Origin: Desulfuromonadales bacterium
GTDB taxonomy: Bacteria > Desulfobacterota > Desulfuromonadia > Geobacterales > Pseudopelobacteraceae
Reading direction: 5' to 3'
Assembly: GCA_013349405.1 (NCBI GenBank)
Contig: DUZS01000013.1
Location: forward strand, 23,026 to 87,025
Length of the DNA: 64,000 bases
Below are positions 51,629 to 54,596 of this stretch, in pieces (position 1 is the stretch's first letter; every line of letters begins with the position of its first letter). Made by a program: the position numbers and the translations under genes. The notes under the pieces are model-generated. The model saw only the letters and a program-made list of their open reading frames with translations. It had not been told where the DNA came from and did not search any database.

Positions 51629-52750
51629 TTACAAGACCGGCTTGCCAACAATTTTAGAGAGCAGGACGATGGCGTCACCCGTGTCGACAACGCCATTCGG
51701 CACTGATATGCCATTTATAACGGGAGCCACATCAAGCCGAGCTACCTGCTCCGCAGTCGGTGTTACTTTTCCGGAGCCGATCTGAAGTGCGAGCAGGGCA
51801 TCGGATAACGTAGTACCGCCTGTGACCGGCAGGATAATGGTGGTTGCGGCAGAACGGCTGCCGGAGACGTTGCCGGCGGCATCTTTGGCCCAGGCGTAGG
51901 CGGTCTTGCTGCCTTCTCCGGAGAAAGTGAAGCTTGTCGGTGCGGTGACAGACCAACCGGGTGCAGTTGCCGCCGGTGTTGTGGCGCTTTCGCTGATCAG
52001 GTAGCCGGTGACACCGATGGCGTCGCTGGCGCTAATTCCGGTGACCGGAACAGTCAGTGCTGCGGCGGTGGACGGCAGGGAAAAGGTGGTCACCGTCGGG
52101 GCGGTAACATCCGGAATCGGATTGTTCACCGTCACAGATACGGAGGAGGATTGTGCGAAGTTGCCGGCACTGTCTCGGGCGATGGCCATCAAGGTGCAGT
52201 TACCGTTGACAAAAGAAGTCGTGTTCCAGCTGAACGCATAAGGGGCCGTGTTGCTTGCAAACAGGAGCGCGCCGTTACGGTAAAACTCTACCATGCTCAC
52301 TCCGACGTTATCACTGGCGCTGGCTGTAATCGCTACGGTGCCGCTTACGTCTGTATTAGCGGCGGGAGAGGTGAGAGAGATAGAGGGAGGGACCGCTTCA
52401 AGGACTGCAACTACATTGGAATAGGGACTTTCAAGCCCTGATGTGTCATAGGCGGTAACGGCAACATAGTACGTCCGGTTGGGATCAAGACCGCTGATGG
52501 TCGCTGTGGTCAGATTGTGAACATCGACAGGAGAGGTGCCTTCGACAGCACCGACGCCGTCAAAAGGGAGCGAGGAGGAGTCCGCTGTATAGTACACCTT
52601 GTAACCGCCCAGATCGGGCTCACTGTTTGCGTCCCATGAAAGTGTCACAGTCTCTGCAAAACAGATTGTTTGCCCGACGAGAAGGCTCGTTATGATGACA
52701 TAAAATATAAGCGCAGATAATGTGCAACGGCTGTAGCATGTGTTAGACAT
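51629..52750 (-). CDS. Secreted FN3/Ig-like protein with dockerin-like C-terminal module
   Basis: Signal peptide; VTLSWDANSEPDLGGYKVYYTADSSS (FN3); DNVGVSMVEFYRNGALLFASNTAPYAFSWNT (Ig-like); C-term TLSDALLALQIGSGKVTPTAEQVARLDVAPVINGISVPNGVVDTGDAIVLLSKIVG. Confidence 0.88.
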   Translation of the reverse strand: MSNTCYSRCTLSALIFYVIITSLLVGQTICFAETVTLSWDANSEPDLGGYKVYYTADSSSLPFDGVGAVEGTSPVDVHNLTTATISGLDPNRTYYVAVTAYDTSGLESPYSNVVAVLEAVPPSISLTSPAANTDVSGTVAITASASDNVGVSMVEFYRNGALLFASNTAPYAFSWNTTSFVNGNCTLMAIARDSAGNFAQSSSVSVTVNNPIPDVTAPTVTTFSLPSTAAALTVPVTGISASDAIGVTGYLISESATTPAATAPGWSVTAPTSFTFSGEGSKTAYAWAKDAAGNVSGSRSAATTIILPVTGGTTLSDALLALQIGSGKVTPTAEQVARLDVAPVINGISVPNGVVDTGDAIVLLSKIVGKPVL

Positions 52751-52773
52751 AAGTCCCTCTATAAGACAAAAAA

Positions 52774-52812
52774 GCGGGTCGTCGATACCTGTGCAGTAAT
52801 TCGGCGACCCGG
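52774..52812 (-). terminator. Rho-independent terminator of gene-proximal GEMM riboswitch
   Basis: Minus strand: CGGGTCGCCGA-loop-TCGACGACCCGC then TTTTTT; the 5' arm overlaps the aptamer's 3' strand. Confidence 0.75.
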
Positions 52813-52879
52813 CTGTCTCTAAGAGACCCTGTAGGCTTTCCGTCCCATCCTCACGGATGGTTTAGTATTTTCGTGTACC
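52797..52879 (-). ncRNA. GEMM-I cyclic-dinucleotide riboswitch aptamer, gene-proximal copy
   Basis: Minus strand: ggtacacgaaaatactaaaccatccgtgaggatgggacggaaagcctacagggtctcttagagacagccgggtcgccgaa; GNRA-capped ccatcc/ggatgg stem and conserved GEMM-I core. Confidence 0.92.
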
Positions 52880-52891
52880 ACAAATAAAAAA

Positions 52892-52930
52892 CCGGGTCGT
52901 CGACACCAGTACGGTAATTCGGCAACCCGG
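52892..52930 (-). terminator. Rho-independent terminator of gene-distal GEMM riboswitch
   Basis: Minus strand: CCGGGTTGCCGA-loop-TCGACGACCCGG then TTTTTT. Confidence 0.75.
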
Positions 52931-52997
52931 CTGTCTCCAAGAGACCCTGTAGGCTTTCCGTCCCATCCTCGCGGATGGTTTAGTATTTTCGTGTACC
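52915..52997 (-). ncRNA. GEMM-I cyclic-dinucleotide riboswitch aptamer, gene-distal copy
   Basis: Minus strand: ggtacacgaaaatactaaaccatccgcgaggatgggacggaaagcctacagggtctcttggagacagccgggttgccgaa; near-identical to the proximal copy, 118 nt apart. Confidence 0.92.
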
Positions 52998-53105
52998 AAA
53001 ATTTTAATCCTGTCTACACGGTATAGTGTGGTTAGTCAATCAATAATTTTGCCAATAATTTTGCCGGATCTATAATAAATACTTACATATAAGATAGATA
53101 CAGTT

Positions 53106-54596
53106 TCATGGGGTTGCCCACCCTTTTGCCCGCTCAAGTGCTCTGCTCCAGCAATTGCGCAGCTCTGCCGCCTCACTTCGCTCCATGGCCGGAGTAAAGG
53201 TCCGTTCCACCTTCCAGAACCGGCCGATCTCAGCGCGATCACGCCAATAGCCGATTGCCAGACCGGCCAGGTAGGCTGCTCCGAGTGCGGTCGTCTCCCG
53301 CACCTGTGGCCGCACGACCGGAACGCCGAGGAGATCTGCCTGAAACTGCATCAGCAGATCATTGTCAGTGGCTCCGCCATCCACCCGCAGTTCGGTCAGC
53401 GGAGTGCCGGAGTCCTTTTCCATCGCTTCGAGTAGATCGGCACTCTGAAAGGCGATGCTTTCCAGAGTGGCCCGGGCAAGGTGCGCCGCCGTAGTGCCAC
53501 GCGTGATGCCTAGTATGGCGCCGCGAGCGTACGGATCCCACTGCGGGGCGCCGAGGCCGGTAAAGGCGGGAACGAGGTAGACGCCGCCGTTGTCGGGCAC
53601 CGATGCGGCCAGAGCTTCGACCTCACCTGAGGAACGGATGATGCCGAGGCCATCACGCAGCCACTGCACTGCCGCACCGGCGGAGAAAACGCTCCCTTCA
53701 AGGGCGTATTCAGTCTCCCCGTCGAGCCGGCAGGCGACGGTGGAGATGAGATTCTGCCCGGAGGTAACCGGACGCCCGCCGGTATGCATCAGCATGAAAC
53801 AGCCGGTGCCGTAGGTGTTCTTGACCATGCCGGGGCGATCGCAGAGCTGGCCGAACAGCGCCGCCTGCTGGTCACCGGCGATGCCGGCAATCGGTATCCG
53901 TGACGCGAAAAAACGGGCTGCGGTCTCACCGTAGACAGCGCTGGAGTCGACTACTTCAGGGAGAACTGCTGCCGGGATCCTCAACAGTTCCAGAAGCTCC
54001 GGATCCCAGGCTCCGGTGTGGATATTGAACAGCAGCGTCCGTGAAGCGTTGCTGGCGTCAGTCAGGTGCCGCTCTCCTCCGGTCAGGTTCCAGACGAGCC
54101 AGGAATCGATCGTACCGAAGGCCAGTTCTCCCGCTTCTGCCCTCGTGCGAGCGCCCGGAACGTGATCAAGAATCCAGGCCAGCTTGGTGCCGGAGAAATA
54201 GGGGTCGAGCAGCAGTCCGGTTCGGGCGCGAAAGAGCGGCTCATGCCCCTGGCGCCTGAGAAGATCACACTCGCCAGCGGTGCGCCGGTCCTGCCAGACA
54301 ATCGCATTGTGGATCGGTTTTCCGCTCCGGCGGTCCCAGACGACTGTTGTTTCACGCTGGTTGGTGATGCCGATGGCGGCAATGTCAGCGGCGGCTGCAC
54401 CGGCACGGGCAACGGCCTCGATGGCCACACCAAGCTGTGAGGCCCAGATCTCCTCCGCGTCATGTTCAACGAGGCCGGGTGCGGGAAATATCTGGCGGAA
54501 CTCTTTCTGAGCAAGGCCGCGAACGGTGCCATCATGGTCAAACACGAGGGCACGGGAACTGGTTGTTCCCTGGTCAAGGGCGAGGATGAAGCTCAT
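53106..54596 (-). CDS. glpK: Glycerol kinase
   Basis: [46 protein letters not shown]. Confidence 0.96.

Follow-up and report, generated by a model that had tools for sequence, protein, structure and literature searches.

Upstream of a gene for a 373-aa exported protein, the 64-kb stretch of DNA analysed here (the window) carries two near-identical GEMM-I aptamers. The leader that they form is best read, with a probability that we put at about 0.88, as two consecutive, complete GEMM-Ib (cGAMP) transcriptional ON-riboswitches that would work by antitermination in series. This reading, made from sequence, would bring a secreted FN3/Big_7 protein family into the cGAMP regulon predicted for Geobacter-like bacteria.

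Two complete riboswitch units precede one gene

An earlier note on this DNA had described two near-identical GEMM-I copies, 118 nt apart on the minus strand and sharing a 5' segment. The tandem is real. The entire window was searched with cmscan against all of Rfam (4227 families), and both copies match RF01051 (c-di-GMP-I/GEMM-I) at full length (model positions 1-87 of 87), with the consensus structure complete and with scores above the gathering score of 35 bits (Table 1). They are therefore GEMM-I members. No other Rfam family among the 4227 reaches its gathering score anywhere in the window. The copies start 118 nt apart, the 118-nt units are identical in register at 107 of 118 positions, and beyond either end of the repeat similarity is no higher than background. 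The shared segment, ACGAAAATACTAAACC, is present in each.

Both units comprise an outer P1 (GGUA...UACC together with inner CG/CG pairs), a P2, a P3, a terminator and a U-tract. In both copies one stretch, GCCGGGUYG, serves as the aptamer's 3' strand and also as the terminator's 5' arm, so that by sequence and RNAfold the two pairings would be mutually exclusive, as in an ON-switch. One gene is thus preceded by two complete units of aptamer plus expression platform, which makes this a tandem riboswitch. The genome has 15 A20-type units (described below), and an automatic scan detected the same overlap in 12 of them. The other three are L005, second in its tandem and with no detected U-tract, L015, which has an alternative stem, and L021, where the scan picked an early T-run. 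The U-tract of unit 2 ends 17 nt upstream of the ATG at 52750, with the ribosome-binding site in between.

Where does transcription of this leader begin? A candidate sigma-70-like promoter lies just upstream of copy 1, and the form TTGACW-N15-TRTAGA is common, by eye, to the window leader and to that of the closest homologue (G031/L044). The assignment is an inference from such reading. A scan for consensus promoters called none on the relevant strand upstream of the leader, which counts against the main reading.

Table 1. Features of the tandem leader and its surroundings (window coordinates)
Feature	Position	Strand	Basis or detail
Regulated gene, 373-aa exported protein	51629..52750	-	ORF, domain search, alignment
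Ribosome-binding site AGAGGGA	52754..52760	-	Sequence
Intrinsic terminator 2	52768..52813	-	RNAfold -18.6 kcal/mol; z -3.3 vs shuffles
GEMM-I aptamer copy 2	52800..52876 (match 52876-52800)	-	cmscan 46.7 bits, E 5.5e-06; 13/13 contact nucleotides
Copy 2 key sites	A20-equivalent 52866; A47/A41-equivalent 52839; C92/C75-equivalent 52804	-	
Intrinsic terminator 1	52886..52931	-	GCCGGGUUG... CGACCCGG UUUUUU; RNAfold -22.7 kcal/mol; z -4.4 vs shuffles
GEMM-I aptamer copy 1	52918..52994 (match 52994-52918)	-	cmscan 50.1 bits, E 8.2e-07; 13/13 4YAZ contact nucleotides
Copy 1 key sites	A20-equivalent 52984; A47/A41-equivalent 52957; C92/C75-equivalent 52922	-	
Copy 1 outer P1	GGUA 52997-52994; UACC 52916-52913	-	Can pair
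Candidate sigma-70-like promoter TTGACT-N15-TGTAGA	53013..53039 (-35 53039-53034; -10 53018-53013)	-	Read by eye
glpK-like glycerol kinase (FGGY), upstream neighbour, end of previous transcription unit	53106..54596	-	

What if only one copy is functional and the other is a recent duplication with no effect of its own? The copies are the same in 98 of 106 columns (92%), terminator 2 is the weaker of the two and has a bulged C close to its base, and the closest homologue of the regulated gene (72% identity in the alignment), in the MAG STC_69 (G031; L044/L133), has the same A20 unit in its leader as a single copy. A search of that homologue for a degenerate second copy found none at E up to 5. 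Against this stands the fact that all 13 ligand contacts, P1, P2, P3 and a terminator are kept in both window copies. Moreover, each is about as distant from the G031 unit as from the other copy (98, 98 and 100 of 106 for the three comparisons), and therefore neither looks decayed. The near-equidistance of the three units also means that the pair arose, or that G031 lost one copy, around the split of the two lineages. Finally, the genome has five tandem pairs, and tandem GEMM-I pairs recur in relatives. A single working copy is therefore unlikely, and we continue with two working switches.

A ligand pocket of predicted cGAMP type

Positions 20, 47 and 92 are given here in Vc2 numbering, and the contact list of structure 4YAZ points to the same columns. 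Two sources give those contacts as G8, A9, A11, A12, U13, A14, C15, G40, A41, A42, G74, C75 and C76 (PMC7288161, PMC6274999). Mapped onto the window, all 13 are the same in both copies. Rfam position 11, the equivalent of Vc2 G20, is an A in each, as the earlier note had said, and A in place of G at this position is what defines GEMM-Ib. According to the same sources, cGAMP is also bound when the canonical class carries a G20A mutation (structure 4YB1). Validated aptamers of the same type show a preference for cGAMP of about 1200-fold (pgcA) and about 1600-fold (Gm0970) (PMC6456294, PMC8835794). The rule that A20 brings a preference for cGAMP, stated in the earlier note, gains support from the 13 contacts, from a GacA orthologue that carries the diagnostic Ser and from 15 A20-type aptamers in the genome. 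The window copies are thus supported as predicted cGAMP-type (GEMM-Ib) riboswitches.

The genome as a whole, a 3.43-Mb draft assembly containing the window, points the same way. It holds 22 GEMM-I aptamers, of which direct reading assigns 15 to the A20 type and seven to the G20 type. Its five tandem pairs are C13 (the window), C7 (205 nt), C14 (139 nt) and C18 (274 nt), all with A20, and C1 (144 nt), with G20. The A20 units precede genes for a PTx-repeat CXXCH protein that resembles PgcA, another CXXCH protein, an L,D-transpeptidase with a SPOR domain, a subtilase, an RCC1-repeat protein, an ice-binding-like protein and others. This set resembles the published cGAMP regulon with its cytochromes and transpeptidases (PMC6456294). 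A GacA orthologue (G000:C44:3864-4334) has an N-terminal REC (receiver) domain and a GGDEY domain in which Ser replaces Asp (GHLIGS), the mark of a Hypr GGDEF enzyme. Among PDB structures it matches best 6d9m, which is from the Hypr GGDEF protein Gmet_1914 of G. metallireducens (E 8e-62, against 6e-42 for PleD). Given this signature, the genome is predicted to have the machinery to make cGAMP.

Another possibility is that c-di-GMP is the main ligand of the switches, or shares them with cGAMP, and that the gene is part of a mixed cyclic-dinucleotide regulon. Some binding of c-di-GMP by cGAMP riboswitches is possible (PMC9262584), through a protonated adenine according to work cited there, and the omcST switch is reported to respond to both ligands (PMC6456294). 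In addition, most of the approximately 19 GGDEF genes of the genome look like ordinary diguanylate cyclases. However, the agreement of all 13 contacts with those of a cGAMP-selective aptamer and the selectivity of the related validated aptamers argue against this possibility, and so does the C1 pair (G000:C1:201998-202218; L134:499-719). This pair, which lies upstream of a gene with a Laminin_G_3 domain, has G20 in an otherwise GEMM-Ib background. Its 33-nt core, GCTAAACCATCCGCGAGGATGGGACGGAAAGCC, equals that of window copy 1 except for G in place of A at position 20; the first C1 copy also has A replacing C at the 92 position. Both alternatives are therefore kept side by side in one genome, a natural experiment in which the aptamer cores of two tandem pairs differ by the single specificity nucleotide. 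We consider a main response to c-di-GMP, or a mixed one, quite improbable at the window locus and retain cGAMP as the predicted ligand. Chance similarity or a non-regulatory repeat can be rejected with near certainty, given E-values of 8e-07 and 5e-06 in the 64-kb search of 4227 families and the placement directly upstream of a gene, with terminator and ribosome-binding site.

GacA and A20 across the order

In an order-wide survey of 141 genomes, in which the association is not corrected for phylogeny, 124 genomes have a GacA match and 113 of these carry the A20 pattern, as do 10 of the 17 that lack such a match. Strict co-occurrence of the two is thus rejected; it is only partial, and this counts against the main reading. 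A reversion of GacA to Asp where A20 is absent is ruled out, since Ser is kept in all orthologues that can be read in frame (28/30). The A20 form occurs in 123 of the 141 genomes; the G20 form of the GEMM-Ib background has 18 matches in 16 genomes.

Four genomes of the window's own genus (G008, G021, G023 and G032) have GacA with Ser but no strict match to the A20 pattern. Their GEMM-I matches score high as ordinary c-di-GMP-I.

A proposed mechanism and its precedents

How might the tandem leader work? With no ligand, each aptamer would give up its 3' strand (GCCGGGUYG...) to a downstream pairing that forms the intrinsic terminator, and RNA polymerase would stop before the gene. 3',3'-cGAMP would be made by the GacA-type Hypr GGDEF enzyme of the genome. 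On binding, its adenine would be read by A20 and its guanine would pair with C92. The aptamer would then retain its 3' strand, the terminator would be blocked and transcription could go on. Because the polymerase would have to get past one switch and then the other, both answering to the same ligand, we propose less leakage and a steeper response than a single switch would give. The parts of the scheme that can be read as such in the DNA are both aptamers, the identity of the pockets, the mutually exclusive pairings, the terminators and the synthase gene.

Precedents exist for each step. In the pilM cGAMP switch of G. metallireducens, aptamer and terminator are mutually exclusive and the switch is ON (PMC9262584). 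Deletion of gacA in G. sulfurreducens lowers all GEMM-Ib genes and increases termination, the tandem GSU2885 included, and in the GSU2885 leader no RNA is then detected by the second riboswitch (PMC6456294). Tandem repeats of one riboswitch class give steeper responses (PMC9481103). For the window locus we infer the ligand, the ON direction and the steepness of the response.

The window copies share with the Geobacter GEMM-Ib switches (Gs1761 pgcA, Gm0970 pilM; 4YAZ) all 13 contacts, A20, the compensated C21:G46 and U22:G45 pairs, the overlapping terminator and the ON architecture. They differ in a P3 loop one nucleotide longer than the 4YAZ numbering implies, and cGAMP is here a predicted ligand. 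With canonical c-di-GMP-I (RF01051, Vc2) they share the overall fold, A47 and C92, but have A for G20 and C:G for G21:C46. Tandem GEMM-Ib switches have already been described in G. sulfurreducens (e.g., GSU2885 omcAHG), so the window pair is a further example of a known arrangement. In both, a pair of A20-type switches stands in series ahead of a single gene; in the window this gene encodes a secreted FN3/Big_7 protein, whereas GSU2885 is a cytochrome operon. Tandem c-di-GMP-I riboswitches number 347 doublets and 12 triplets, the doublets being the most numerous tandem riboswitches in one survey (PMC9481103). They too repeat aptamer and expression platform, and a steeper response is predicted for both; the window pocket differs in its A20.

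The regulated protein

The earlier note had called the product a secreted FN3/dockerin-like protein, and the first half of this description holds. The protein has an N-terminal hydrophobic signal, an FN3 domain (Pfam fn3, 3.2e-08), Big_7 (2.3e-20), an Ig-like region and a C-terminal helical segment that looks dockerin-like. The dockerin half fares less well. The window protein has no Pfam dockerin match and does not belong to PF00404, the dockerin type I family with its duplicated Ca-binding loops. A shorter paralogue, encoded in L048, has a dockerin-like loop, GDVNRDGKVDVSDALLALHMAVG, which reaches 16.9 bits for Dockerin_1 against a cut-off of 22.9. Therefore "dockerin-like" denotes resemblance, not membership. 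An AlphaFold model (six sequences) has a mean pLDDT of 61, too low for a fold search, and gives C-terminal helices only. The protein presumably acts at the cell surface.

Leaders of the FN3 family in relatives

A single A20 switch precedes FN3-family genes in L044, L046, L048, L055, L108, L114 and L119, and L166 has A20 followed by A20 before one FN3 gene. Other leaders are mixed. An A20 switch is followed by a canonical c-di-GMP-I switch (G20/A47/C92) in L167 and ahead of the FN3 gene that comes next in L166. In L130:1328-1741, L131:386-681 and L135:362-651, one or more A20 switches stand ahead of a variant that contains TTTCCGAAGRGGTAAACC and GGGTTGGCGA. The inner P1 C-G/C-G pairs of this variant put G (A in L185) at the C92 position and J1/2 is one nucleotide shorter, which gives a predicted G20/A47/G92 pocket. 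Searching the 141 genomes by pattern gave 17 copies, spread over 14 genomes (L170-L186, e.g., L172 and L174; the match lies at or near locus position 1500). All 17 precede genes for FN3-family secreted proteins and the variant was found only there; three of them follow A20 switches. Rfam places two copies marginally under c-di-GMP-I-UAU (66.7 vs 65.9 bits), yet neither has a U/A/U pocket. No description of the variant was found in the literature examined; the study that defined GEMM-I variants of this sort is reportedly Weinberg 2017.

Perhaps, then, the leaders of this family are a hot spot for swapping and stacking GEMM-I riboswitches of different ligand types. This is a tentative idea, and we would sooner bet against it than for it. 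If it were true, the mixed tandems, which possibly act as two-signal AND gates, would be natural two-input devices that read a pair of cyclic dinucleotides, and the GEMM-I variant among them might recognise a new ligand. The integration of cGAMP and c-di-GMP signals by cells would become directly testable with true two-signal gates. The G20/A47/G92 variant may be a more novel lead than the window pair itself.

Other features accompany these leaders. A CRP/FNR-like palindrome, TGTGA-N6-TCACA, lies upstream of the GEMM aptamers in L046, L048, L055, L058, L053, L108, L114 and L119, and in the promoters of FN3-family leaders it is often followed by TGCGATAA; it is absent from the window leader. 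In L166 and L167 an open frame resembling the Crp/Fnr family lies on the minus strand upstream of the first GEMM pair and adjoins two FN3-family genes with tandem riboswitches. By eye, the FN3-family proteins behind A20 switches in L053, L058 and L102 begin with repeats that resemble MshEN (c-di-GMP-binding) domains.
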